Notes under the pieces: model-generated
Seen by the model: only the letters and a program-made list of their open reading frames with translations
Told to the model about the DNA's origin: nothing
Database searches by the model: none
Shown: positions 157 to 53,935 of the stretch, piece after piece
How positions within the stretch are numbered: position 1 is the stretch's first letter
Layout of the letters: every line of letters starts with the position of its first letter
Position numbers and translations under genes: made by a program
Assembly (NCBI RefSeq): GCF_036785885.1
Contig: NC_092320.1
Span: 15,563,557-15,627,556, forward strand
Direction: 5' to 3'
DNA length: 64,000 nucleotides
Origin: Coffea arabica
Taxonomy: Eukaryota; Streptophyta; Magnoliopsida; Gentianales; Rubiaceae

Positions 157-1559
157 ATCAGCAACCTTGCAAAAACTTCATGAAACAAATTGTCATAGTT
201 AATTAATGTATTCCAGTTTGAATTTCTGCATCCTATAATTTATTACTTGTGTGTGCTTCATTGTTTTGTAATAATGAACCCCTGAATTAATGGAGCTTCC
301 ATTCTTTAACAGTCAATTTCTGCCCACGTGTTATTGAGCTCCAAACATATAAACCAACCGTACTAGTCCCATATCTTTGGAGCACATATAACTTTTCGGT
401 CTAAATCTAACTTGGAAATGAATATCAACTCTTTGTAGGCAATGAACTCTATTTGACGATCTTCTAGGCACAGCTATAGATGGTGCCACGGACCCCAAAA
501 AAGAAAAAAAAAATCTCTAAATGCAATTTGTATAGGACTTGGAACAACAAACTTATCACCAACTTTGGGTAATTTAAGGTTCTGAAAACGTTGTAAACCA
601 AGTTTGTGGCCATATGATACTAATCATTTGTTATCATTCTCTCTCTTTTTCTTATAAAGATAGAGAGGCCTACGTCTATCTGAGAGAAAACTCCTATTAC
701 ATTTGAGAAACTCAAGTGATCAACATATACACTGGTTTAACTATCTGTAACTACTACTGCAACTATTGCATCAGACATTCCATGGACAACCCCCATTCAA
801 TCAACAATTGCCAGTTCTCTGGAGTTCGAGAGCTTTACGGCAGGAAACAACCACCATTTGAACTACTCGACTGATAGCTGTAAAAACTTGTCCACTGCTT
901 GTAACAAAATTCGTAGCAGGCCATTAACGTTGATAGGTTAAAGATAGGTTAATTAGCGACTTATATTCAAAGTTTTTTTTCCCTTTTTTCAGCTCTTGTT
1001 TCGTGAACTTGTCTCCATAGAGGTCGAGTGGGCTTTCTCTTGTAACATTGTCACTATCAAGTCTATTACCTTCTTTTTAGATATGAAATTTTTATTTTTA
1101 GTATGTCATAAGCATAAGAAACAAGGGTAGACCTAGATGCTTGAAGCCTCATCAAATATTGGATTTTAGACTATGTACGTGGTAATATCTGAATTCCTCC
1201 TTTTTTTTAATTAAATTTCATAATATTGCTGATAAAGCACTAAATTAAATTCTTTAAGTATGTTATCGTGGACACTTGATGCATGCGGTATGCATTTGGT
1301 GTCATGTTGTTCTTGTTCATAAGACTACGCACTACCCATGACACACTAGAGTTGTAATGCCTCATTATTATTATTATTATTAATTTTTTTGGGTATGGCT
1401 TAAGTTTTGAGAAATTTAAAGCTACATTAATTGAATACGTTTTATTTTTTATTTTGAATGTTACTGTTAATTATATAGTTTTTTCATGTGAATCATAATT
1501 AACTTCTTAGTTTAAGTACTTAATTTTTTATATGAATCGTAATTAATTTCTTAGTTTTA
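157..1559. other. Intergenic, no gene seen
   Basis: AT-rich sequence downstream of the germin-like gene, presumably holding its 3' UTR at the start. It contains a short ATT microsatellite near 1366-1382. No coding sequence or complete mobile element was recognised. Confidence 0.6.
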
Positions 1560-1568
1560 TAAATTAAA

Positions 1569-1925
1569 GGGTTTAATTGTAATTTGCACCCTTGACTACT
1601 CAAGCATCCGACTTTGCACCTCAAAATTTTTAATTCTAGCAACTAACTACATTTAACTTTTGATTTTCAGCAATGCACTACAATAATCCAAAACAGAATT
1701 CTTCCGACCACTAATTAGTAAAAAGATCATTACAACCCTTCCTCTTCTTTTAAATTAAAATGCCATTTTTATCAGGATAGGGCCCAAATCTCACATAATT
1801 AAGGCACAGAAAAATAATCTACCGAACAAGAACCGAAGTAGAAGGTAGGTAATTGGGGAAATTAAAAGTTTAGGGAGCAAAGTTCAATTTGCAGATAGTT
1901 GAGGGGTACAAAGTGCATTTAATCC
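1569..1925. mobile_element. Short non-autonomous Mutator-like element (MITE)
   Basis: A 357-bp element with imperfect terminal inverted repeats: it starts gggtttaattgtaatttgca and ends in a related inverted sequence at gcatttaatcc. It is flanked by a perfect 9-bp duplication, taaattaaa, at 1560-1568 and 1926-1934. A 9-bp target duplication is the hallmark of the Mutator superfamily. No coding capacity. Confidence 0.8.
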
Positions 1926-2342
1926 TAAATTAAAATAAAAATCTTCTTAGTATTATTTTCTGTACAATTAATGGTCAATTTTAGTTCGGAAAGTAATGGT
2001 CAATTTTTAATTCAAGAGTGCGAGAAGTATTTTTTTTTTTTTTTTTTTTTTGCACAAGCACAAGCATAGGTAAAAGACAGGGTTAACAATACACTTTTAC
2101 CTATAAAGATCCTTCTGTACTTGTGACGTTTTGAGAAAACTTGGCTGATCGCAATGCTATATATAATAAATTTGATGACCGAACTGGCTTAACTTTTTGT
2201 GATTGTTTTTTTCGTTTTAATTCAAAAAATTGCAAAATAATTCATCATTTTAGTCTAAATTTTGATTACCTTATCCTTTTCTCTTTTAGTTATATCCCGC
2301 TTAAAAGAGCCGATATCATTTTGCATATATAACATGTGGACG

Positions 2343-3088
2343 ATTGCCATGATGTTCTTATGGTTCATTATCAATTGAAAGAAATTATTACTTTTCCCTA
2401 CAGCCGTCAAACAAACCCATTTAATTAAGTTTACCAATATCCGCCCATGAATAGATGGATATGAGTATGTTAAATTTTTACATATGGGTATAAATGAGTT
2501 ACCTAATAATACCCATCAAACCCAATTAACTCATTTAGAATTGTCTTCCCCCAAACCTTTTCTCTTCCCCCACCCATTAACTTGCTCATTTTTTACCATT
2601 ACCAATTTATGACAAGTTTTAGCCACTTTTCTTATTTTTCCAAAATGAAATTTTAAATTTACACACGAAAAAATGCTAGAGGTTCAAAATTTTTGAATTA
2701 AGTTTTTATGTTAACTTTTATAGTACTTAGTTCAAAATTTTATATTCTTATTGTTTAATTATTAAATAGTATGTAATTTTGTGACATAGAGTATATATGG
2801 GAAAAAATTTGGTAATTAGGTTTGTTGGGCATTATAAATAAATATTTAAAACTAATGATGGGTGTAAAGGATGGTATAAATTGATAACTTAATTTGCAAA
2901 AATGAATTTATAAAAAGTTAAAATAAATGGGTTATAAATGGGTAATTGGGTTACCCAATTCATTTTTTGAGTTACCCATTTATACCCATCTAATTAAATA
3001 GGTATAAATAGGTTGACTCACTTATACCCATTACCCATTTTACCCAATCCAAACCCGCCCAAATCACCCATTTTGACATCATGGCAAT
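2343..3088. repeat. Repeat region bounded by 13-bp inverted repeats
   Basis: The 13-mer attgccatgatgt at 2343-2355 recurs inverted at 3076-3088. The interior holds many direct and inverted versions of acccattta/taaatgggt, especially at 2420-2530 and 2920-3060. This looks like a non-autonomous DNA transposon, but I found no target-site duplication, so the family and exact ends are uncertain. A poly(T) tract lies just upstream at about 2031-2051. Confidence 0.4.
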
Positions 3089-4404
3089 TGAAAAGTTTTC
3101 CCCATTCCGAACTTCTAAATCGCTTCTAACTACCAACGGTTTATGTTGTTGTTTAGTGGATTACAGACTTTGGGTAAATTCTTGCCTTCTCCTTGCTGAA
3201 AAGTTAAAATGTGCAGATAGTTATTCCTTGAAATTTAACAGGGCCACCATGGGTCCAAGATTTCGTAGAATTTTGCACCAATTAAATTAAAAAATAAAAG
3301 TATTAACGAAGAAAAATTAGTGCATAATTCAAGCGTAAGAAATGAAGAACAAGACAAAACAAAGGGAAAAAAGAAAAGACAAATCAGAGGAGAAGGGAAA
3401 CAAGACAAATATAGCTTTTGGTCTCGAGTCAAAACTTCTTCTTTTATTGTACGCAAAAATTTCTTGATCTTATTAACTCAAATTGATATCAATAAATCCC
3501 ATTACAAGGTATTGCTATTCTGTAGAACTCAAATCTTTTGGCAACTGTTGTAGAGCAACTTGGTATCAGTACTTGTTATGGCAACTGGAGTATATGAAGG
3601 TACTAAATATACATCATCCTCTGGTGTATTCTACTCAACTATTTCCCGTAAAGTGCAAACGCACAAATGATACCAAACACTCTAGAAGGACCGCTTGCTA
3701 CAGCTGGGCTCAAATTGCTGGACTCTGGTGATCTGCAACTTCATAGTAATGATGGATAATTTAATGAGGATATACAATTGATCTTATGAATAAGTTTATC
3801 TTGTTTCATATAAGTGATGGAATGTCGGTAGCTGCAACAAGTATGTTGCTTTTCTTTAAAAAGGATAAAAATGAATAAAGGGGGCCAAAAAAAAAAAAAA
3901 AGAACAGTTGGTGTTATGGTTGATAGCCTCCAGTTTCAATTGCAATACTGCACTTAGATTTTATCTTGTCCTACCATTTTACTGGTTTTTTCCTTGTTCA
4001 ACTATTTCTTTTTTCCTTTCTTCAAAGTTTGCTGCGTTTCTGTTATAGGTCATCATCGGGAAATAAATGATGAATTCGTCATTTTGTTTTTCTCAATACG
4101 GATAGTAGCTTGTTGCAGCATCAGAGGGATATATGCATGTAGTTGAGGCAAAACGACCGCAAGGAGGTCAATTTAGTTTACTAACAAAAGAAAAGGAGGA
4201 AAAGAAAAGGAGGAAAAGGACCAATATCTAAATTCGGGACAAGACAAATTATTACTTCAATCTTCTGCTTATATTCGTACATGTATCTATTCCTATTCAA
4301 ACCCAAATTCTAAGAAGTAAAAACTCTAAACACATCTTATTACAGGGTGCAATGCAAAGATAGACTAGATGTTTGATGTCACTGAAATTTGATATCCCTG
4401 ATCC
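3089..4404. other. Intergenic with possible retroposed transcript remnant
   Basis: No intact gene. A stretch ending near 3906 carries an AATAAA signal just upstream of an A-rich tract of about 15 bases, as a processed transcript would. A sequence like an initiator-Met primer site (ttggtatcag) lies near 3560. I could not recognise a parent gene. Confidence 0.3.
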
Positions 4405-39460: not shown

Positions 39461-39689
39461 TATTGAGGAAATTGCAGAAATTAGTGCAGCAATTTACGGG
39501 ATGATATTTTAGGATCTTTAGCTAATAAATTAGTGGATGTAATTTTGGTAGTTTACTATTGTGTAGGAAATCTTTATTTGTACAGATATAGAAATTATAT
39601 AGGTAGGATCCTTATCTCTGTATATAAAGACACCTTTGAGGTCAATGAGAAGATCATCTCTTTTGATCCCAGTATTTCTGTTTTCTTCA
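39461..39689 (+). repeat. 5' LTR of the copia element
   Basis: 229 bp, TATTGAGGAAATTG to TTTTCTTCA. Contains a TATA-like tgtatataaaga at about 39618-39629. Confidence 0.9.
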
Positions 39690-39701
39690 TGGTATCAGAA
39701 G
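39690..39701 (+). promoter_or_regulatory. Primer binding site (initiator tRNA-Met)
   Basis: tggtatcagaag follows the 5' LTR directly, complementary to the 3' end of plant initiator Met tRNA except near its last bases. Confidence 0.85.
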
Positions 39702-39703
39702 TA

Positions 39704-40817
39704 ATGCCTCCCAAAGATGAAGGAAATTCTGGTTTCGATAAGAAAACTTCCAGTCCTTACGCTATGAGCCCCAACGACAATCCAAACAACATAATTACCC
39801 AGGTGCAGTTGAAGGGAGAAAATTATGAAGAATGGGCACGGGCAGTGCGAACTGCATTGAGGGCCAAAAAGAAGTATGGTTTCATTGATGGAACTGTGGA
39901 ACAACCGGCAGATGATTTGCTGGAAATTGAAGATTGGTGGACAGTTAATTCCATGCTGGTTTCATGGGTATTTAACACCATTGACCCCTCTTTACGTTCA
40001 ATTATTTCTCTTGTGGACAATATTGGAGACTTTTGGGAGGACATAAGGCATCGCTTCTCAATTGGGAATGGACCAAGAGTCCAGCAATTGAGATCAGACT
40101 TGACGAATTGCAAGCTGGAGGGACAAACCATAGTCAATTACTATGGACAGCTTAAAACCATATGGGATGAACTGAATAATTACGACAAAATACCATTGTG
40201 CAGTTGTGGTGGATGCAAGTGCAATCTCACAACTGAAAAGGGAGGAAGAAAGAGTTCATTAATTTTTGATGGGCTTGGATAAAGATCGCTATGGTATTGT
40301 GCGTGCTAATATTTTGAGCACAGAGCCATTACCCAATCTGAATAGGGTATATGCAATGGTCATTCAGCAAGAACGAGTAAGGACAATGTCACGAACAAGG
40401 GAAGAGAAAGGCAACCCCATGAGCTTTGCAGTTCAGGTTGGTGGACGAAGTTCAGGGGGGGACAAAACTGCAGTATGCTCTCATTGCAATCGTGAGGGAC
40501 ACAATTCAGGTACCTGGTTTCAGCTGATAGGGTATCCAGATTGGTGGGGAAATAGACCTCGCTTCAGTACTCTAGGGCGAGGAAGTGGGCGTAAGCGCAA
40601 TGGTGGTGGAGGCCGTGACAGGGGTGGTGTACCACGAGCAAATGTCACTCAAACATTTGCAACAGAAGGTGATCACGGAGGAGTCATAGAAACTGACAAA
40701 AAGGGGCTTAGTGGGTTGAATGATGAACAATGGTGCATTTTGCTGGGACTTTTGAGTTCGCAAAAGACTGTATCCAATGAAAGATTGATTGGTAAGCAAG
40801 AATTTTGTCTTGGGTAA
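39704..40817 (+). pseudogene. copia gag, frameshifted
   Basis: Starts MPPKDEGNSGF and has the copia Gag pattern NIITQVQLKGENYEEWARA. The frame is lost around 40250 and continues from about 40266 in another frame to a CCHC knuckle near 40476. The fourth zinc ligand of that knuckle reads Trp (HNSGTWF) where cysteine is expected. The frame ends at 40817 just before the protease frame. Confidence 0.85.
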
Positions 40818-43800
40818 TAGATTCAGGGGCTTCCCATCATATGACTAGGACAAGGGCCTACCTGAGAGATGTGTCTGACATTGTTCCATGTTCAGTCAGA
40901 ATGCCAAATGGTGAAGCAACTGTGGCACTGAAAAAAGGAACGGTGCATCTTGGAGGAGGATTGAAATTGCAACATGTTCTTTTTGTGCCTAATTTAAAAT
41001 ATAACTTGATCTCTGTTTCACAACTTCTCAATCACTCAAATCTGGTACCGCAAATCACTAACAAAATTTGTGCTATACAGGACCGAAATACGAGGAGATT
41101 GATTGGAGCGGGTGAACAACACGAGGGGCTATATTTTTTGAAGGTGGTGGCTTCGGCAAATGCTTGTAAAACTTCTGGAGTTTCAGACTTCAATCTTTGG
41201 CATAGGAGAATGGGTCATCCGTCGAGCAAGGTGCTAGAGTTGATTTCTATAGCAAATAAATTTAGTAAAAATAGTGATAATTTAAGTTGTGATATTTGTT
41301 TTATAGCAAAACAGACTAGAGAGATGTTTTATTCTAGTGACAATAAAGCTAAGAATTGTCTTGATTTAATGCATTGTGACTTATGGGGGCCTTATAAAGC
41401 TTTGGTTTCTTGTGAAACTGCTTATTTCTTGACTATTGTTGATGATTGTTCTCATGCTGTGTGATTTATTTGCTGAAAGGAAAACAAGAAGTTGCTTGTG
41501 TTCTTAAGAATTTTATTGCTATGGTTAAACGACAATTTGAGAAGGATGTGAAGACTATTAGGAGTGATAATGGCACTGAATTTGTGTGTCTACGAAAATA
41601 TTTTGATGAAAATGGTAAATTGCACCAAATTTCTTGTGTAGGAACTCCCCAACAGAATGGACGAGTTGAGAGAAAGCATCGTCACTTCCTTAATGTGGCG
41701 AGAACTTTGATGTTTCAGGCACACTTGCTAATTGACTTTTGGGGTGAATGCATTCTTACTGCTGGATACTTAATCAATAGGACACCATCCGCGGTCCTGA
41801 AGGGAAAAACTCCTTATGAAATTCTCTTTGGACAACTTCCTTCCTATAATCATATTAGGACTTTTGGGTGTCTAAGTTATGTGCATAGACAACTTAGAGA
41901 TAAGGATAAATTTGCCAGTCGAAACCGTAGGTGTGTTTTTGTGGGGTACCCTTTTGACAAGAAAGGATGGAAAGTGTATGATTTAGAAACTTCTGAGTAT
42001 CTTGTCTCAAGGGATGTGGTGTTTGTAGAAACAAATTTTCCATACTCTGCAATAATGATTGCAGATGAAAATTCCACTAAAAATGCAGATGGAGCTCATG
42101 AGCATAAGGATTGGGAAATTGTTGAGGAAGATGGGGAGATATTAGAGAAATCTCCTGAAGATTGTCCACCTACTGAGGAAATTGCAGAAATCAGTACAGC
42201 TGAAAATAGGGAAGAAAATTCAGGAGAGGAGGTACTAGTAGGAGATCAGCTTGGTCGTAGACATAGGATTAAATAGTCATCCACTCGTTTGAAGGACTAT
42301 GTGACAAATAATGTGCAATTCAGTCCCTCGCAGAGTTCACCGCTTCAACCGCATTCCTCAGGTATGTCTTATCCCATAGCCAATTTTGTTGGTTATGATT
42401 GGTTTTCTTCACAATATCGGTCCTTCTTGGCAAGCATTCTGCAGGTTCAGAACCAGTTTCTTATAATGAGGCAATGAGAGATGAACGATGGCGTGAAGCT
42501 ATGAGAAAAGAAATTCAAGCTTTGGAAGAGAGTGGAACTTGGATGGTGGAAAACTTACCCGTTGGGAAGAAGGCTATTGGTAGTAAGTGGGTGTACAAAA
42601 TAAAATATAATTCTGATGGAAGCATTGAACGATGCAAGGCTCGATTGGTAATTCTTGGCAATAATCAAAAAGATGGTATTGACTATCATGAAACTTTTGC
42701 TCCTACTGCAAAGATGGCCACTATATGTACTTTTCTTGTAGTAGCTGCTGCAAAGAACTGGGAACTACATTAGATGGATGTGCAGAATACTTTCTTGCAT
42801 GGAGACTTGAATGAGGAAGTTTTCATGAAAATGCCACCAGGTTGTGAATCTAAAAATCCTGGGAAAATGTGTAGACTACGAAGATCTTTGTATGGCTTGC
42901 ATCAAGCACCCCGTTGTTGGTTTACTAAGCTGGCAGATTCTTTGAAGAAGTATGGCTTTCATCAATCTTGCTCAGACTATTCATTATTTGCTTTTCGTGA
43001 ACAGCATGTGCAAATACATGTTCTGGTTTATGTAGATGATCTCATTATTTCAGGTAATGATGCCACGGCTGTGCAGCGAGTTAAGAAATATTTGAGTAGC
43101 TATTTTCATATGAAGGATTTGGGACAGTTGAAATATTTTTTGGGTATAGAGGTAGCAAGAAATGCTGAAGGGATTTTTCTTTGTCAACGAAAATACGCCT
43201 TGGATGTCATCTCTGAGGTTGGTTTGCTGGGAGCTAAGCCAGCGAAAACTCCACTGGAGCAGAATCATAAACTTGCACTTGTTGAAGGGGATGATGCCAG
43301 TAACCCTGCTCAATATCATCGGCTGGTAGGCAGACTGATTTACTTAACTATTACACGACCTAAATTGAGCTACTGTGTCCATATTCTTGCTCAATTTATG
43401 CAGCAACCAAAGAAGGCCCATTGGGAAGCTGCATTACGAGTAGTCCGATATTTGAAGGGTAATCCTGGACAGGGAATCTTTTTGCGAGCCAACTCTGATC
43501 TTAAATTGTATGCATATTGTGACTTCGATTGGGCAAGTTGTCCCTTGACAAGACGCTTCTTGACAGGTTATTTTATTTGCTTGGGTAGATCACCTGTCTC
43601 ATGGAAAACCAAGAAACAACAGACTGTTTCACGCTCCTCTGCTGAGGCAGAATATCGGTCAATGACTACAGCAGCTTGTGAACTTAAGTGGTTAAAAGGT
43701 TTGATGCTATTTCTTGGTGTTGATCATTCTAGTTCCATGCGGTTGTACTGTGATAGTCAATCAGCTTTACACATTGCAGCGAATCCTGTATATCATGAGC

Positions 43801-43985
43801 GTACGAAACACATCGAAATTGATTGTCATTTCATTCGCGAAGAGATACAAAATGGGAACATTGAAATAGCTCATGTTCGTACGACTTTACAACTTGCTGA
43901 TATTTTCACTAAAGCTTTGGGTACTGATCAATTTCAATTTCTTCTTAGTAAGTTGGGCATCTTTAATCTTCATGCTCCAACTTGA
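40805..43985 (+). pseudogene. copia pol, multiple frameshifts and stops
   Basis: Order: aspartic protease (DSGASHH, about 40820), GAG-pre-integrase (LWHRRMGHPS, about 41197), integrase core (HCDLWGP, SDNGTEF, NGRVERKHRH), reverse transcriptase (GSKWVYKIKYNSDG, YVDD near 43032) and RNase H (DFDWASCPLTRR, SRSSAEAEYRSM), ending near 43985. Lesions: frame break near 41455, stop at 42274-42276, frame break near 42440 and stop at 42771-42773. A purine tract (gagggaggg) follows before the 3' LTR. Confidence 0.92.
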
Positions 43986-43992
43986 GGGAGGG

Positions 43993-44266
43993 TATTGAGG
44001 AAATTGCAGAAATTAGTGCAACAATTTACGGAATGATACTTTAGGAAATTGCAGAAATTAGTTCAGTAATTTACGGGATGATATTTTAGGATCTTTAGCT
44101 AATAAATTAGTGGATGTAATTTTGGTAGTTTACTATTGTATAGGAAATCTTTATTTGTACAGATATAGAAATTATATAGGTAGGATCCTTATCTCTGTAT
44201 ATAAAGACACCTTTGAGGTCAATGAAAAGATCATCTCTTTTGATCCCAGTATTTCTGTTTTCTTCA
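43993..44266 (+). repeat. 3' LTR of the copia element
   Basis: 274 bp; equals the 5' LTR plus a 45-bp tandem duplication of its first part (aggaaattgcagaaattag appears twice). Confidence 0.9.
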
Positions 44267-45791
44267 CTTGGGATCTCTGGAAATAGCATAAACATTAACT
44301 AGTAGTCTAGTCTTTGCTAGTATGTGATAACCCTCAATACTGCAGTTCTCACTTGACTCTCTCAAAATGAATGGCCCGCCTGGTGGATGAAGCCTTAGTG
44401 TTTCCTTAACAACGGCTTGAAGGTAAGGAAGCTTAGGAATATCTGATTCTTCTACCAGTCTACCTTTTCCAACGACAGAATCAATTTCTTGAAGGTAAGG
44501 TAAGGAAGCTTAGCTCTGCTAGTGCCCATTCCACCGCAATAGCTAATGTATCTGTTCCACCGGTAAATACATCCTGTAAATGATCAAACATAGTAAATTA
44601 TCAATTAGATAGTAATATGTTAGGAAATAGCACCAGAGAAGTTGGACGGATGTCCATTTTACAGTTATGATTTTGTAGTCACTAATGACTGATATAGATG
44701 AATATTGACAAGATAATACAAAATTACCAGAATGAAAGCTTTAATGTTCTCTTCTATCAATTTGAACTTAGAGCTTTCGTCTTCTGATATATCAAGTAAA
44801 ATGTCATGAAGATCCTTGGCAGCTTCACCATCAACAGGTTGCCTTTGCTTTCTAATCTCCTGGTGTTCCTAGATGATCTTTTTCAATATCTCATCATACT
44901 TGTCGCGAACTTTCTTGAGCCTCTTTCCAAGTCCCTGCAAATCCAAGTTCTCACATAACCAGAATAAGTCAGACAAGTTAAATTGCCCATAGAGCTCAGA
45001 ACCCTCTTGAATCGCCTTCCTGACTTCCATGGCCTGAGAGTCATTTCCAGAACACTTTTGGCTCATGATCATTTCTGATATCACATTATTCGTTGTTGTC
45101 ATTACCTCGGCTCGAATATCAACTGCCTTGCTAGCTTTTGCAGACGTTGCAAATGATTGTATTAAATTCTTTACTTCAGAATGTCTAATGGGAAACATTA
45201 GGTCTAAGGTCCGACCTCCAAGAAGTTCAGACATGCAGAGTTTTTTCTTGAATTTCTAATATGGTCCATAGGGGGCAAAAGCAAAGTCTTGTGAGCCATA
45301 AGTTAAGTAGTTGATAGCAACTATTTGAGGCGGGTTGGAAAAGAAAATTTCATTAGTTTTGAGGCACTCTTTAGCAATCTCAGGTGATGATGCAACCACA
45401 CAAGAAATGGAACCAAAGTATACGTGAAGTAAGGGTCCATAACTGTTGGAGAGCTTGTGAAGAGCTTTATGAGGTGCTGGAGAAAGTAGATGAAGGTGTC
45501 CGATAATTGGCAAGGCTAGTGGACCGGGAGGAAGGTTATTAGAAGTTCTATTTCTAATTAATTTTCGAACAAAGATGGTTGAAATAAGCCAAATGAGGAA
45601 GAGAATGATGTATCCTTGAACATCAGCCATGATTAAAACTTGGTGAATCTCGTAGATTTATCAACCAGAAAATTTGAATTTGGTTAACTATGCAGTTAAT
45701 GCTGCTTATAGTACAATGAACAAGTAGGATTATCCTTACTTTTTATAGCACATTAGGTTGAGATAGCAATGTAATCAGGTCATTTGCAATT

Positions 45792-46910
45792 TATTGATCT
45801 TGGTCCCTATTTTTTGATGATGACAAAACAAATGGATGTTACTAATATCTCTTCAAAGATCTTTTCAACTGTGAAGCAAATCAAGTTCAAAGATTAAATA
45901 CAATTGAAAGAGACAAAGGGTGCTGAAAGCTGTCGGACGCTTGTGAAGACTGGATCGGACGTCCAATAATCATTGCGCAACTTCGAACGCATGAAGAACT
46001 CCACTACTGGACGTTCGAAGGAAATAAGACATTTCCCCTGGATCACTGATCTCGTTCGGACGCAAGCATCGGACGTCCGATAGGATCGTTCAAACTCGAC
46101 GAAAGCTGTCGAACGCTCACAAAAATAATACCGGACATTCGATAAAATTGAGATATTCCTTCTAACTCATTGCCTGATGTCGGACGCATGGTTTGGATGT
46201 TCGATAGAATTGAAGAAAATTTTTCAAACTCTCTACCTGTTGTCGGACGCATGCTTGGGTAGTACCTGACGTCTGATACTCCAACGGCTAGTTGATTCTT
46301 CAACTACTTTCTATCCGTTGGAAACATTAATGAAGCACTTTTTTGGTCTTATATAAATAGTGGATGGTCAGAAATTTTAAACAATTTTTGCACATTAAAG
46401 ATACAAAAGATCTAGAGTAATTTTAGTGAGAAAACACTCTCCAAAGAAGATTGTAGTCTTGGTGGTGTGAAGTTTATTGTAAACTTTTCATTTGTGAGTG
46501 AATACTTCATGAGTGTAGTTCAGTGAGAGTTGTCCTGAGAGATAGTAAAACTTCCCAACTTGATCGAGTGGAGTTCGAGACAAGAAAGAGGTGAACCTTC
46601 ATTTGCACACAAGAGTGATTGTAATTCATCAATTTGAAGAAACTTGTTTGAATTAATCAACAAACTCAAGAGGAGTTGGGTATTTAATTGGTATGCAATT
46701 TTTTTTATTTATTTATTGTTATATTTGTGATCTTTACATTGCTTATCTCTTCTACTTCTCTCAAGTGATTTTATTCATTCATTAATTGATTCATTGTGTG
46801 ATCACTTAGAAAAGAGGGTAAATTTCATATTAAGCAAAAAATGCCCATAACTTAATTAGATTTTTAATCAACCTAATTCATATCCTCTTAGATTGTTTTC
46901 GATCCTTACA
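45792..46910 (+). repeat. 5' LTR of the outer Gag-only element
   Basis: 1119 bp, starts TATTGATCTTGG (3' LTR has TGTTGATATTGG) and ends CGATCCTTACA. Carries a cluster of cggacg/cgtccg motifs at 45935-46275, followed by a TATA box. Confidence 0.9.
46350..46359 (+). promoter_or_regulatory. LTR TATA box
   Basis: TATATAAATA about 75 bp after the last cggacg-type motif in the 5' LTR; an identical motif is in the 3' LTR near 53372. Confidence 0.6.
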
Positions 46911-46966
46911 ATTGGTATCAGCGTTTGGTCTCTTAGAGATTAAGTTCAATCGACTTTGGAGTAAAA

Positions 46967-48686
46967 ATGACAATTAACAATGTCATATTTTTTGAAAAAC
47001 AATCTATGATTAGACCTCCAATGTTTAATGGGTCAAATTATGTGAGTTGGAAAGAAAGAAAAATTCTTTTTGCAATCAATTGATATTGAATTGTGATTTA
47101 TTGTTAGTGAAAGTCCATATGTTGCCTCTGTTATAGATGAAAATACTCATAGACCTAAACCAAAAATAAGAAATGAACTGACTGCTGCGGATAGAATTCA
47201 TCTCACCTTAAATGCAAAGGTTATGTGTTATATAGTGCTTTAGATTCAAATGAATCTATTAAAATCAAAGGCTACAAGTCAGCTAAGGAGATTTGGAACA
47301 AATTGAGAGAAATCCATGAAGGAAGTGAGAATGTGAGAGAACAAAAGAAATCTATTTTAGTTATCAAATATGAATCATTTAAAATGAAACCTTATGAAGA
47401 TGTTGATAAAATGTATTGTAAATTTAATGATGTTATTAAGGATTTAGAAGTGTTAGAAAAGAAATACTCTTTAGGAGAAAACAACAGAAAAATCTTGAAT
47501 GCCTTGTTCAAGGATTAGGAGAGTTAGGTGACTGCTATTGAAGAGGCTAAAGATTTGAATTTTATGCCTATTGAATCTCTTATAAACTCTCTAATATTTA
47601 TGAGTTGAAACTTAAGACCAAGGTACAGGAAGAAGAAGATACAAAAGTAAAAAGGAACATTACTCTAAAAACATCTCAAAATGATGATGATTCAGTTTCC
47701 TTGGATGAAGAAAATATGGATGATAATGATCTAGTTCTAATCACAAAAAGTTTCAAAAGAATTCTCAACATAACGAGATTCAGAAAAGGAGAATCTCGCA
47801 ATACATTTCTAAATCAGTTCAACAATGCAAAAAATAATACAAAGCAAGAGACCAATAAAAAGTAAACTGACAAATGTTATGAATGTGACCAACTTGGACA
47901 TTATATGAGTGAGTGTCCAATGATGAAAAAAAAAAGAAGGAAGAAAATCAAGGTTCAACAAATTTCAATTCACATGGAATGAGTACAACTCCGATGGTGA
48001 AATTGAACAGGAAGAAAAATCTGTTCAATAAACTTTTATGGCCATTGGAGATGATGAGATAACATTTTCTAACTTTCAATTTGAAAGTGATGATGAAACT
48101 GAAGATGATTTTGAATTTTTCATTATAAAATTGTATGATAAGTTGAAAGAATCTTATGCTAGAAACAATAAATTAAAACATAAAATTGACTTTTTTTTCA
48201 GGATAATGCACGTCTTTTTCAAAAAAATAAAAATTGAAAACTGACAATGATTTCTTAAAAAAGAGTGAGACTATTTTACACTTTGAGTTTGATAGAAAAA
48301 CAAGACTTTGTGAAATATTCAAAAAAGAACAAGGTAATTTGAAAAGAAGAATGGATAATTTAAATGAGTTGCTCCAACATAAAAAATAAAACTGTTTTCA
48401 AGGTAATAAATCAAAGGTTCATTTTGACACTCATGAGAAAAAATTAAATTCTGGTACAAATGAATTTGCTATTTATAAGAGGATACAAGTAAGATTTATT
48501 AAATCTGTTCATATAAATAACTCTTTAGTTATGTGTAATTTTTGTTGTCAAAAAGGTCACATGAAAAGTGATTGTTATGTGAAGAAAAATATGAGAAGAG
48601 GTATGAAATGCATGTGGATAGTTAGACATGATGCTAACTCTCAAGAATCCAAAATTAAAGGGAAAAAAAGAATAATGCTGATCTAA
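46967..48686 (+). pseudogene. Gag of the outer element, degenerate
   Basis: Fragments of a copia-type (UBN2-like) Gag in several frames: RPPMFNGSNY near the start, then SIKIKGYKSAKEIWNKLREI (47245 on) and KKYSLGENNRKIL. Two CCHC knuckles follow: CYECDQLGHYMSEC near 47875 and CNFCCQKGHMKSDC near 48537. Several stops and frameshifts break it. Closely related to the intact Gag at 50284-51831. No pol follows before the 3' LTR. Confidence 0.85.
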
Positions 48687-49086
48687 TGATGATTTATTTT
48701 TTATTTTGATTGTTATTTATGTGTTTGATACTTCTTTTGATATCAATTCTTTGTGATATGTTGGTGATTGCTGTCATTTCTCTGTTTTTATAGTGGATTC
48801 TCTGTTATTGTTGTTGGATTATGATAGTTGGTTTTTACTCTCATCTTATGATGACAAAAATGGGAGAAATAGATGCTATATGCAAGGGGGAGTTATTATG
48901 AGATTATGAGTTTGACACTTAAAAGTTTTGGATGCGATGAATGAGGGGGAGTTTATACTCATTTTTGTTTCATTCCATGCATTGTTTTGTCATCATCAAA
49001 AAGGGGAAGAATGTTGATATTGGTCCCTATCTTTTGATGATGACAAAACAAATGGATATTACTAATATCTTTTCAAAAATCTTTTC

Positions 49087-50038
49087 TGTAATGCCCGGTG
49101 CAACCCAATGAGTACAAACAATTTCACAATGATGCACAAAAATATATCAAATTTAAGCACAATAAAGAAAACTTAATTAAAGAGAAAAGATAAGAAATGC
49201 AAACCAAATATCAATCCAATAACCTCTTCAATTGATGGCGATGCTAACCAAGATGTACAAGTGAAGGTTCACTCCTTTCTCGTCCCAAATACTCTTTGGT
49301 TGAGCCAAGGAGTTTTACAACAATTCTAGTTAACCCTCAACAACCTACACTTGAAAGATCACTCACCCAATTAAAAACTATTTTATACAAATGAGGCAAC
49401 CTTCACCAAGGTTTTACCACTCCAAGTGATAGGTTCACCTTCACCAAGGTTTTCACTTGAGCAACCTCACAACCCAACTTTCCCAACCCCTTATACAACC
49501 AACAAAGAATCTTTCTACTCAAAAATCTCACTTGTAAGCTTGTATTTTGTGTTGGCAAAAGTCTCTTGTCTTCTTGTGCTTTGGGGTTTTTATAGAAGGT
49601 GAGAAATGACTCCAAAAGACTCTCCAACGGTCAAATATTAAATGCTGTCAAAACTAGCCGTTGGCCTGTCGGACGTCCGAACCCTGCGTCCAAACCACCT
49701 GTCGGACGTCCGAACCCTGCGTCCGAACGTAGGCAGAGAGTCATCAAATCTTTGCGAAATTTCTCGGACGTCCGATGCGATCGATGTGCGTCCGAGGCGT
49801 GCGTCCGATCCTTCCGGACGTCCGATGCTTCCTCACGAGCGTCCGACAGAGTTTCCTTCTTGATGTTCTTCATTCTTTCGGACGTCCGATAGCGTCCGAC
49901 ATGAGTGCCCTGTTTTTGCTTTTTCTTTTATGCCACAAGAATCTGTTCTAACAAATTACTCACATAAAAATATTAGCCCAAATCTATATTTTGGTTTGTT
50001 AATCATCAAAACCAAGGATTGATCGACCAAGGTCAACA
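49087..50038 (-). repeat. 3' LTR (left copy) of nested element
   Basis: TGTAATGCCCGG to GGTCAACA on the + strand. Has four exact TCGGACGTCCGA copies (49669, 49702, 49764, 49878) and a near match at 49814. A - strand TATA motif CTATAAAAA lies at 49587-49595. Confidence 0.9.
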
Positions 50039-50283
50039 ATCTCCCCCTTTTTGATGATGACAAACAAAATGAAGATTTCTTTTAACAAATAAGTTCAAAT
50101 AAAGCTCCCCCTTAGAAAGTGCCAACATACAAAGAAATTTCAATAAATCCTACTCCCCCTTTTGGCATCAATCAAAAACAAACTCCCCCTTTATTTTTCA
50201 AATCAAGACCATATTGAATATCAAAATTTTCAATTGTACTTACAACCATATAGCACTTCTTGGATCAAATCATCATGATGTGC

Positions 50284-51831
50284 CTAAATATGAGAAATTT
50301 CATTTGGTACCCTTTCTTTATAGGGTCCTTGGGAGTTAATACGACATGATCTAGCAATCCACATGAATTTCATGCCTTTTCTCATATTTTTCTTTACATA
50401 GCAATCATTTTGCATATGTCCAAATTTGTAACAAAAGTTACACATGATAGAAGTATTTTGCACATAGGTGGATTTAATGCAACTAATTTTCTTATTTCTT
50501 ATCATAGCAAACTTATTTGTGCCTTGAAAAGATTTGCTTTCTTTTGTTTGAGAAAACTTTTGTTTTTCATTTTGGAGAAACTCGTTCAAGTCATTAATTC
50601 TTTTCTTTAACACATTTTGTTCCTCCAACATTTTTTCATAAAACTTTGTTTTCTCTTCTAACTTCCTTTTCAAATTATTTTTGCAATCAAAAACACTTTT
50701 TTGATTTTTTAAATCATCATTTTCCATTCTCAAACATTTGTTTTCTTGAAACAGTTTGGAGTTTTCTTCCAACAAATCATTTATTTTTGTTTTCAAATCT
50801 TTATTTTTAGCATAAGATTTTCTCAAACTTTTATGCATTTTAATCATAAGAATTTTCACATCATCATCTTCATTATCTTCATCACAAGAAGAGTGATAAG
50901 AACTTACCTCATCTTCTCCAACGGCCATTAGTGCCATTTGAGCCAACTCTTCTTTTTCTCTTTTTGAATTGCATTCATCCCATGTAATTTTGCAATCTCC
51001 TCTTGAGCATCTCTTGTTGAAGGTCTTCTTGGAACTTTTGATGTGAGGAGTTGTATCATTGTCCACTTCCATGAATTCATTACCCATAAAGGATGGGTTA
51101 TCCCCCACTTGAAATGCTTTAAAAGCTATGCCTCTCTTATACATTCTTGCATTTTCTTCCTCTTGCACTTTGAATTTCAGCTTTAATTCATAAGAGGTTA
51201 GGGTATCCACAAGAGATTCAATGGACATAGAATTTAAATCCTTTGCCTCTTCTATAGCATTTATTTTGTTTTCCCATTCTTTTGGCAAGCCATTCAAAAT
51301 CTTTCTATTTTTCTCACCCAAAGAATATTCTTTTCCAAGCAATTTAAGATCTTCAATAATGTCACAAAATCTACTACACATCTTATCAACATTTTTAAGA
51401 GGATGCATTTTGAAAAATTCATATTGAGAAACAAGCAAAGATTTCTTTTGTTCTTTAATATCTTGGTTACCTTCATGAAATACACACAATTTATCCCAAA
51501 TATCTTTAGCTGATTTACAACCTTTAATCCTGCTAGATTCATTTACATCTAATGCATTGTACAATATACACATGGCCTTGCCATTTAAAAAAAGGTATCT
51601 CTTGTCTTTTTCATTCAATTCTTGTCTAGTCTTTAATCTACTCAAATTGGTGGTGGAGTCAACTATTCTAACTTCATAAGGACCATCTTCTACCACATAC
51701 CATAATTCAATATAAACGGATTGTAAGAAAATCATCATTCTTTGTTTCCACATGCTAAAATGAGAACCATTAAACATAGGTGGTCTATCAATAGATTGCC
51801 CTTCTAAAAAAGAAACTTTTATGGTTGCCAT
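50284..51831 (-). CDS. Gag-like protein of the nested Gag-only element
   Basis: An unbroken 515-residue frame. The N-terminal region matches copia-type UBN2 Gag (RPPMFNGSHFSMWKQRMMIF, CKSAKDIWDKLCVFHEG, EYSLGEKNRKILNGLPKEWE). A Lys/Glu/Asn-rich segment at about 330-430 looks like a coiled coil (NDLLEENSKLFQENKCLRME). A CCHC zinc knuckle follows near residue 465 (CNFCYKFGHMQNDC). The start codon is about 45 bp from the primer site, as for a retrotransposon Gag. No protease, integrase or reverse transcriptase follows. Gag should assemble particles and package RNA; mobilisation would need enzymes in trans. The middle segment has acidic runs and lacks the first knuckle seen in the outer element. 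Confidence 0.88.
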   Translation of the reverse strand: MATIKVSFLEGQSIDRPPMFNGSHFSMWKQRMMIFLQSVYIELWYVVEDGPYEVRIVDSTTNLSRLKTRQELNEKDKRYLFLNGKAMCILYNALDVNESSRIKGCKSAKDIWDKLCVFHEGNQDIKEQKKSLLVSQYEFFKMHPLKNVDKMCSRFCDIIEDLKLLGKEYSLGEKNRKILNGLPKEWENKINAIEEAKDLNSMSIESLVDTLTSYELKLKFKVQEEENARMYKRGIAFKAFQVGDNPSFMGNEFMEVDNDTTPHIKSSKKTFNKRCSRGDCKITWDECNSKREKEELAQMALMAVGEDEVSSYHSSCDEDNEDDDVKILMIKMHKSLRKSYAKNKDLKTKINDLLEENSKLFQENKCLRMENDDLKNQKSVFDCKNNLKRKLEEKTKFYEKMLEEQNVLKKRINDLNEFLQNEKQKFSQTKESKSFQGTNKFAMIRNKKISCIKSTYVQNTSIMCNFCYKFGHMQNDCYVKKNMRKGMKFMWIARSCRINSQGPYKERVPNEISHI

Positions 51832-51873
51832 GATCTTTACTCTAAGCGGTTAAGCTTGATCAAAAGAGACCAA

Positions 51874-51885
51874 GCTCTGATACCA
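51874..51885 (-). promoter_or_regulatory. Primer binding site of nested element
   Basis: TGGTATCAGAGC on the - strand, two bases from the LTR; matches the complement of initiator tRNA-Met. Confidence 0.9.
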
Positions 51886-51887
51886 AT

Positions 51888-52885
51888 TGTAATGCCCGGT
51901 GCAACCCAATGAGTACAAACAATTTCACAATGATGCACAAAGATATATCAAATTTAAGCACAATAAAGAAAACTTAATTAAAGAGAAAAGATAAGAAATG
52001 CAAACCAAATATCAATCCAATAACCTCTTCAATTGATGGCGATGCTAACCAAAATGTACAAGTGAAGGTTCACTCCTTCCTCACCCCAAATACTCTTTGG
52101 TTGAGCCAAGGAGTTTTACAACAATTCTAGTTAACCCTCAACAACCTATACTTGAAAGATCACTCACCCAATTAAGAACTATTTTATACAAATGAGGCAA
52201 CCTTCACCAAGGTTTTACCACTCCAAGTGATAGGTTCACCTTCACCAAGGTTTTCACTTGAGCAACCTCACAACCCAACTTTCCCAACCCCTTATACAAC
52301 CAACAAAGAATCTTTCTACTCAAAAATCTCACTTGTAAGCTTGTATTTTGTGTTGGCAAAAGTCTCTTGTCTTCTTGTGCTTTGGAATTTTTATAGAAGG
52401 TGAGAAATGACTCCAAAAGACTCTCCAACGGTCAAATATTAAATGCTGTCAAAACTAGCCGTTGGCCTGTCGGACGTCCGAGACCTCCTGTCGGACGTCC
52501 GAACCCTGCGTCCAAACCACCTGTCGGACGTCCGAACCCTGCGTCCGAACCACCTGTCGGACGTCCGAACCGAACGTAGGCAGAGAGTCATCAAATCTTT
52601 GCGAAATTTCTCGGACGTCCGATGCGATCGATGTGCGTCCGAGGCGTGCGTCCGATCCTTCCGGACGTCCGATGCTTCCTCACGAGCGTCCGACAGAGTT
52701 TCCTTCTTGATGTTCTTCATTCTTTCGGACGTCCGATAGCGTCCGACATGAGTGCCCTGTTTTTGCTTCTTCTTTTATGCCACAAGAATCTGTTCTAACA
52801 AATTACTCACATAAAAACATTAACCCAAATCTACATTTTGATTTGTTAATCATCAAAACCAAGGATTGATCGACCAAGGTCAACA
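51888..52885 (-). repeat. 5' LTR (right copy) of nested element
   Basis: 998 bp. Has six exact TCGGACGTCCGA copies (52470, 52491, 52524, 52557, 52611, 52725), against four in the left LTR. The - strand TATA motif is near 52392. Confidence 0.9.
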
Positions 52886-53935
52886 TTTTCAGCTGTGAAA
52901 CAAATCAGGTTCAAAAATTAAATACAATTGAAAGAGACAAAAGGTGCTGAAAGCTGTCGGACGCTTGTGAAGACTGGATCGGACGTCCGATAATCATTGT
53001 GCAACTTCAGACGTATGAAGAACTCCACCACCAGACATTCGAAAGAAATAAAACATTCCCCTTAGATCGCTGACCTCGTTCGGACGCAAGTATCGGACGT
53101 CCGATAGGATTTTTCAAACTCGACGAAAGCTGTCAGACGCTCACAAAAACAATACCGAACGTTCGATAGAATTGAGATATTCTTTTTAACTTATTGCCTG
53201 ATGTTGGATGCATGGTTCGAACGTCCGATAGAATTGAAAAAAAATTTTCAAAGTCACTGCCCACTGTCGGACGCATGCTTGGGTAGTACCTGACGTCCGA
53301 TACTCCAACGGTTAGTTGATTCTTCAGTTACTTTCTATCCGTTGGAAACATTAATGAAGCACTTTTTTGGTCTTATATAAATAGTGGATGGTCAGAAACT
53401 TCAAACAACTTTTGCACATTAAAGATACAAAAGATCTAGAATACTTTTAGTGAGAAAACACTCTCCAAAGAAGATTTGTGGTTTTGGTGATGTGAAATTT
53501 ATTGTAAACTTTTCATTTGTGAGTAAATACTTCATGAGTGTAGTTCTGTGAGGGTTGTCCCGAGAGATAGTAAAACTTTCCAACTTGACCGAGTGGAGTT
53601 CGGGGTAAGGAGGAAGTGAACATTCCTTTACACACAAGAGTGATTGTAATTCATCAATTTAAAGAAGTTTGTTTGAATTAATCTACAAGCTCAAGAGGAG
53701 TTGGGTAATTAATTGGTTTGCAATTTTATTTACTTATTGTTATGTTTGGGATCTTTACATTGCTTATCTCTTCTACTTCTCTCAAATGATTTTGTTCATT
53801 CATTAATTGATTCATTGTGTGATCACTTAGAAAAGATGATAAATTTCATATTGAGCAAAAGTGCCCATAACTTAATTAGATTTTTAATCAACTTAATTCA
53901 CCCCCTCTTAGATTGTTTTCGATCCTTACACAATT

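Follow-up and report, generated by a model that had tools for sequence, protein, structure and literature searches.

Long terminal repeat (LTR) retrotransposons of the TR-GAG type, in which Gag is the only coding content, were reportedly described by Chaparro et al. in 2015, and have a total length under 4 kb. The subject of the present analysis is a pair of such Gag-only elements, one nested in the other, in a stretch of 64,000 nucleotides of Coffea arabica DNA (contig NC_092320.1, positions 15,563,557 to 15,627,556), which in its whole length is called the window. TR-GAGs have been defined or used in print (PMC6022998, PMC8704663, PMC9784723), including a copia TR-GAG of Arabidopsis with a Gag of 562 amino acids (aa), which transposed in ddm1 (PMC8704663), and centromeric Gypsy TR-GAGs in Coffea (PMC5818461). 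In barley, the Copia family RLC_Giselle has a gag that is potentially intact but neither reverse transcriptase (RT) nor integrase, and is linked to RLC_Inga (PMC5738225), and an element named Inga appears in a table of Sireviruses (PMC2829016), while RLG_Sabrina_SA and RLG_WHAM of wheat are presented as 'semi-autonomous' GAG-Pro elements (PMC9744471). Sireviruses themselves are marked by a polypurine tract (PPT) octamer with an attachment site, multiple PPTs, an inverted repeat, a primer binding site (PBS) and palindromes with a CGG-CCG core, and a C-rich integrase signal near the LTR end was reported in 17 Sirevirus elements (PMC2829016).

Following the results given below, we consider it probable (roughly 0.75) that both elements of the window are TR-GAG-type descendants of Sireviruses which are served by the enzymes of autonomous Sireviruses, and that the inner Gag is intact mainly through the youth of its burst, Gag having been under constraint in the long term.

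Structure of the nested elements

The outer element is split by the younger inner insertion, and this arrangement is not a matter of chance, because the LTR repeats, the target site duplications (TSDs) and the genome-wide copies agree. The parts of both elements are as follows.

45792..53930, + strand: outer LTR element, Gag-only, into which the inner element has inserted; TSD caatt at 45787-45791 and 53931-53935
45792..46910, + strand: outer 5' LTR, 1013/1114 identical to the outer 3' LTR
46911..46924, + strand: outer primer site, degenerate (ATTGG + TATCAGCGT)
46982..48626, + strand: decayed outer Gag, six matched pieces (tblastn)
48885..49011, + strand: PPTs of the outer element, AGGGGGAG at 48885 and 48944 together with a terminal one that is mutated
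49012..49086, + strand: outer 3' LTR, first part
52891..53930, + strand: outer 3' LTR, second part
49087..52885, - strand: inner LTR element, Gag-only, between TSD copies ttttc at 49082-49086 and 52886-52890
51888..52885, - strand: inner 5' LTR, 998 bp, seven CGGACGTCCG palindromes
51832..51887, - strand: inner leader, ATTGG plus initiator-Met primer site TATCAGAGC at 51874-51882
50284..51831, - strand: Gag of the inner element, intact at 515 aa, with a Retrotran_gag_2 domain, a coiled-coil-like region and a single C-terminal CCHC
50039..50283, - strand: inner linker, four AGGGGGAG octamers, the terminal one being AGGGGGAG-AT/TG; left arm of an inverted repeat
50041, 50105, 50153 and 50183: inner linker octamers, reading CTCCCCCT on the + strand
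49087..50038, - strand: inner 3' LTR, 952 bp

An earlier description made from the letters of the window (the sequence-only reading) had proposed two nested LTR elements with these limits, TSDs, PBSs and PPTs, and the LTR comparison confirms them, with the qualification that PBS and PPT are canonical in the inner element and mutated in the outer one (where the degenerate primer site is ATTGGTATCAGCG and the degenerate terminal PPT is AGGGGAAG). The inner element measures 3799 bp with an interior of 1849 bp; the outer interior is 2101 bp, which gives an element of ~4.3 kb without the insert. In both interiors Gag (decayed in the outer element) is the sole coding content and no pol was found, so that with their LTRs, TSD, PBS and PPT they are TR-GAG-type elements, as had been suggested, although against the 4-kb limit only the inner one falls below and the outer one lies above. 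The inner LTRs are identical at 938/952 positions, all 14 differences being transitions (Kimura two-parameter distance, K2P, 0.015), versus 86 transitions and 15 transversions in 1114 bp for the outer LTRs (K2P 0.099). Under an assumed rate of 1.3e-8 per site per year, the insertions date to ~0.6 (inner) and ~3.8 (outer) million years.

The uninterrupted inner Gag frame of 515 aa was likewise read correctly, as was its CCHC zinc knuckle, a single C-terminal one; the missing central CCHC is what sets this Gag apart as unusual. It matches Pfam Retrotran_gag_2 (E 7e-27), while its coiled coil rests on sub-threshold Pfam matches (residues 329-431). The outer Gag, rightly called a decayed homologue, aligns with the inner Gag in only six pieces (37-60% aa identity, tblastn) between which the frame changes; codons for a central CCHC lie near 47877-47926 (by eye) and for a C-terminal one near 48540. 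'Copia-type' was a correct name for these Gags, which are more exactly of Sirevirus type, and the view that a coiled coil is unusual for a copia Gag does not hold, since a long Gag with a coiled coil is normal for this lineage. A PDB sequence search returned only a weak match (YabA, E 0.031), and one scan of viral contigs found no close Gag relatives.

The two families across the genome

The genome to which the window belongs (1.198 Gb in 131 contigs) was searched with Gag, and the best 84 of 9085 candidates, window copy included, form the inner Gag set, i.e. the closest relatives and not a random sample. All 84 are full length at 96-100% identity, and 66 are stop-free. In each of 30 inner-family loci fetched from this search (window copy included; picked by Gag similarity) the order of leader, Gag and linker is unbroken, with no room for pol, and the Gag frame is open in 28. 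A DNA search with the inner 3' LTR, the linker and the end of Gag as query gave 39 non-self matches, of which 17 are in the Gag-search set and 22 are new, and every one is contiguous across the three parts. Genome-wide there are 593 inner PPT/LTR junctions (<=1 mismatch) and 294 inner Gag-stop/linker junctions (<=2 mismatches), with 0 in the control for each. Exact PPT/LTR junctions were compared further for the first 100 among the matches listed, on contigs C1 to C6; a Gag-stop junction lies <=700 bp away for 14/19 of those on C1 and 12/16 of those on C3. The 19 inner-family elements with both LTRs complete have a median LTR divergence (K) of 0.003, and 17 of them have a perfect 5-bp TSD. The inner family is therefore a large, recently active family, in line with the very recent activity proposed by the sequence-only reading.

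For the outer family, 40 copies were scored (self included), of which six cover essentially the whole interior, while in a further 14 no more than about 0.6 kb separates Gag from the 3' linker; with Gag and linker contiguous or that close, at least 20/40 outer copies have no room for pol. In three outer-family interiors that were read, the Gag frames contain several stops (one is also frameshifted) and two CCHC regions; the central CCHC is present in outer-family Gags. A supply of pol in trans, as had been suggested, is supported by these counts, and families in which most members carry pol are not what the samples contain.

Two of the 30 fetched inner loci (L017 and L021; about 471-3292 in element orientation) consist of a 5' LTR and an intact Gag with no 3' LTR. 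In both, the element breaks off exactly at ...AAAAAGGGGGAGA and lies between perfect 5-bp TSDs (CTCTT and GTTCA, respectively), which looks like the integration of one-LTR DNA opened at the PPT/U3 junction.

A separate observation concerns tandem LTR+gag arrays. At C6:35594575-35701972 an inner PPT/LTR junction recurs every 2834 bp, in two blocks of 12 and at least 13 units (among the matches listed), and further arrays lie at C20:26545007, C16:14437302, C5:17676336 and C10:33487270. Here a retrotransposon is turning into a satellite-like repeat. On C16, two three-unit arrays (14437302-14444468 on the + strand and 14559078-14566244 on the - strand) have matching scores and opposite orientation at a distance of ~120 kb, and are either a large inverted duplication or an assembly artefact.

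A pol-bearing relative in the same genome

Candidates for a helper were sought with a Sirevirus-type RT motif, on which the Sirevirus assignment of the RT rests; it occurs at 857 + 856 = 1713 sites, and its reversed control at 0. One site (C1:5815357) was read in three pieces, which hold an LTR end, PBS, leader and the open N part of Gag (L074), the C part of Gag with its stop and a second in-frame stop followed by protease (L075), and integrase to RNase H (L073). Both its leader and its LTR end are similar to those of the outer family; its PBS is identical to that of the inner element, whose leader is similar as well. As to the autonomous partner with matching LTR ends that the sequence-only reading had proposed to look for, a pol-bearing relative with the same PBS, a similar leader and a homologous Gag was found, and its LTR end is outer-like. 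Compared with two outer copies, the helper Gag has an identity of 72-73% in the N part and 54% in the C part; it contains the central CCHC and ends in ...NSQGPNM-stop; outer-family Gags stop at the matching place, whereas the inner frame is about ten codons longer. Among the best 55 of 17362 pol candidates, which are 97-100% identical, 53 are stop-free and seven (query included) are at 100%. This shows that a pol-bearing Sirevirus with a homologous Gag is present in the genome.

Other copia sequences were also considered. The copia RT within the window (about 42.4-44 kb) was rejected as the helper, its protease motif and Gag resembling another lineage (judged by motifs); it lies within a decayed copia element of that other lineage (39485-44000, + strand), with fragments of Gag, protease, integrase and RT. 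Thirty of 150 RVT_2 family matches (among the matches listed) were fetched with 1.5-kb flanks, in which neither GGGGGAG nor a match to the inner or outer LTR occurred, flanks of this length being too short to exclude Sirevirus membership; one of these loci (L050) has a 27% Gag match. On C20, six RVT_2 copies are alike in score, in a frame of 1010 aa and in their two stops, and are either a copia family amplified after breaking or a segmental duplication. Adjoining the outer element in the window (44869-45630, - strand) are two open frames that resemble the start of a cytochrome P450 gene (named by eye).

Sirevirus descent

The PBS, the PPTs, the inverted repeat, the LTR palindromes and the Gag indicate that both elements are Gag-only LTR retrotransposons of Sirevirus descent. 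The octamer AGGGGGAG stands 10 bp before the 3' LTR with its AT/TG attachment site, exact in the inner element and mutated in the outer window copy, and four such octamers fall within the 245 bp of the inner linker. Around the terminal PPT there is, in the inner element only, an inverted repeat that 0/2000 shuffles equalled. The junction of ATTGG and TATCAGAGC is exact in the inner element and the helper and mutated in the outer window copy, and the CGGACGTCCG palindromes (CGG-CCG core) number 7 and 5 in the two inner LTRs and 1 in the outer 5' LTR. The outer 3' LTR is C-rich (by eye), as is the LTR end of the helper. Against membership proper, the large Gag with a central CCHC and a downstream coiled coil that Sireviruses have is seen, as to its central CCHC, in outer-family and helper Gags but not in the inner Gag. 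Because the inner element lacks this knuckle as well as the C-rich integrase signal, 'of Sirevirus descent' is the appropriate term and full membership is not.

A Gag/linker junction common to inner and outer elements would mean a single loss of pol, and was assessed with 2000 shuffles. Over the whole linker the inner-outer comparison is not distinct (140 and 173 of the 2000 shuffles were as good), and the distinctness of its first 60 bp (20 and 23 of 2000) is not relied on. Since unrooted protein trees place the helper Gag with the outer Gag, it is likely that inner and outer elements would have lost pol separately.

Distribution over the chromosome sets

Inner Gag copies occur almost only on contigs 1, 3, 5, 7, 10, 11, 13, 16, 17, 20 and 21, i.e. 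one per consecutive pair among 22, and the genome looks like an allotetraploid with 11 homoeologous pairs. On this contig set, which was defined after seeing the data, lie 80/84 inner copies from the Gag search, 60/64 of the complete 0-1 mismatch list, 38/39 from the DNA search and 54/55 pol copies. The inner and pol queries come from the biased set, which inflates the bias; the outer query does too, yet the outer family (8/39 non-self copies on the inner-burst set) leans to the other set.

Selection on Gag

The claim that selection keeps the inner Gag intact is not borne out by the pooled recent ratios of nonsynonymous to synonymous rates (dN/dS), which are 0.82-0.97, and the sign of recent selection is mixed, clear constraint being confined to the deep comparisons. 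The window copy is probably intact mainly because it comes from a young burst, and recent intactness needs no selection. Two explanations of what the Gag does for its family have to be weighed in some detail.

The first, to which we give close to even odds, is that Gag is selected, the family supplying it to itself or to a mixed particle pool, a role that has been proposed for the 'semi-autonomous' GAG elements of wheat (PMC9744471). It accords with an intact Gag in two sublineages and with deep dN/dS values of 0.14-0.50 (inner-helper 0.24-0.40, outer-helper 0.14-0.38, inner-outer 0.36-0.50), as well as with a value of 0.44 when the Gags of two outer copies are compared in full length (outer-outer values being 0.39 for the N part and 0.80 for the C part). 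On the other hand, dS in the deep comparisons is near 1 and saturated, the pooled recent values are near 1, and part of the deep constraint may predate the loss of pol. Older constraint on Gag is thus real, yet the Gag-only state cannot be credited with it, because it may include time spent as an autonomous element.

The second explanation, towards which we lean less while still taking it seriously, is that the inner Gag, although intact, is a passenger free of selection, in a family that moves wholly on helper proteins and owes its open frame only to youth. In the 30 inner copies the singletons comprise 66 nonsynonymous (N), 32 synonymous (S) and 2 nonsense changes versus 67.3:26.7:6.0 expected (dN/dS 0.82), the shared variants 17N:7S:0 nonsense versus 16.4:5.8:1.8 (dN/dS 0.86), and two open sublineages differ by 17N:5S fixed differences (dN/dS 0.97); these three ratios speak for a passenger. 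So does the comparison between these sublineages, where the divergence is 2.0-2.2% in gag versus 0.9-1.8% in noncoding sequence, gag changing at least as fast in 6/6 pairs (31/1530 versus 18/1205 changes for the pair L008-L011). Within the burst, however, gag differs by 0.3-0.6% and noncoding sequence by 0.7-1.2%, gag being slower in 3/3 pairs, and single inner pairs have a dN/dS of 0.29-1.44 on few changes (seven of eight at 0.29-0.93), with two other pairs at about 0.5 within wide limits. The absence of nonsense changes among shared variants also counts against a passenger, as do the sole gag indel between the sublineages, which is in frame (18 bp), and the deep dN/dS of 0.24-0.50 for pairs that include the inner Gag. 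The power of these comparisons is low, and the 30 copies were picked by Gag similarity.

It is improbable that the inner Gag would, for lack of its central zinc knuckle, interfere with the autonomous Sirevirus instead of helping it: outer-family and helper Gags do keep that knuckle and the inner family is abundant, but the C-terminal CCHC, the Retrotran_gag_2 domain and the coiled-coil-like region are retained. Least probable is an origin of the window copies as isolated products of internal deletion within a family that carries pol: common as such deletions generally are in plants, one Gag/linker junction is shared by 30/30 fetched loci and 17/19 complete elements have their own perfect TSD and young LTRs.

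Proposed mechanism and its weak points

For Gag-only elements served by autonomous Sireviruses, the element RNA would be made from its own LTR promoter and packaged by Gag, be it its own, the helper's or that of mixed particles. Reverse transcription would be primed by the initiator-Met tRNA at TATCAGAGC and from the AGGGGGAG tract, and integration would follow with 5-bp TSDs, protease, RT-RNase H and integrase all coming from autonomous Sireviruses.

Several points weigh against this reading. The supply of pol in trans is itself something that we infer from sequence. In the sample checked, the inner LTR was not seen on any element that carries pol: 0/19 exact C1 junctions (among the matches listed) lie <=25 kb from any of the 79 C1 RT sites. 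Between the helper Gag and three inner copies, identity reaches only 55-57% in the N part and 40-42% in the C part, and the C-rich integrase signal is absent from the inner LTR ends while the helper has one. The contig bias stems in part from ranking by similarity to a query on the same set. Finally, Gag-stop junctions lay <=700 bp from only 1/11 exact PPT/LTR junctions on C2 and 0/14 on C4 (among the matches listed). C2 and C4, which belong to the other contig set, seem to hold a diverged sister group of the inner family; on each, one junction pair is ~2.7-2.8 kb apart, and therefore too close for pol between.

More tentatively, and with considerable doubt, the knuckle-less Gag-only family may have undergone its burst within one subgenome jointly with an autonomous, intact Sirevirus, part of the family's cDNA having been integrated as one-LTR molecules cut at PPT/U3, with the integrase accepting the PPT end for the U5 end. 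In any case, a Gag-only family and a pol-bearing relative, each abundant and with copies that hardly differ, share one chromosome set here and form a natural case, in which one can ask whether Gag-only elements give Gag, take Gag or interfere. The one-LTR insertions, flanked as they are by TSDs, are relevant to the question of which DNA ends can serve a copia integrase.

Comparison with known systems

With Sireviruses the two elements share the PPT octamer and attachment site, multiple PPTs, the inverted repeat, the PBS, palindromes and a long Gag (PMC2829016); the repeat of the Sirevirus Usier, GTCGGACGTCCGAC, has the same CGG-CCG core as CGGACGTCCG. They differ in having no pol and, for the inner element, neither the central CCHC nor the C-rich integrase signal. 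RLC_Giselle is also a gag-only Copia family thought to depend on a related autonomous element, albeit in another plant. Sabrina and WHAM are likewise abundant Gag-encoding families without RT and integrase that co-evolve with an autonomous partner, but they are Gypsy elements and have kept the protease. Judged by title and abstract, no same case was among the papers listed for the one-LTR insertions, the tandem arrays or coffee. There is likeness to TR-GAGs too, with two LTRs, PBS, PPT, a single Gag open reading frame and no pol in an amplified mobile family; the difference is that here Sirevirus descent is identified, the central knuckle of the inner Gag is lost, and one-LTR insertions and tandem arrays occur. 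The kind of element is thus already known, and the detail added is this family, its knuckle loss, its one-LTR insertions and its arrays.

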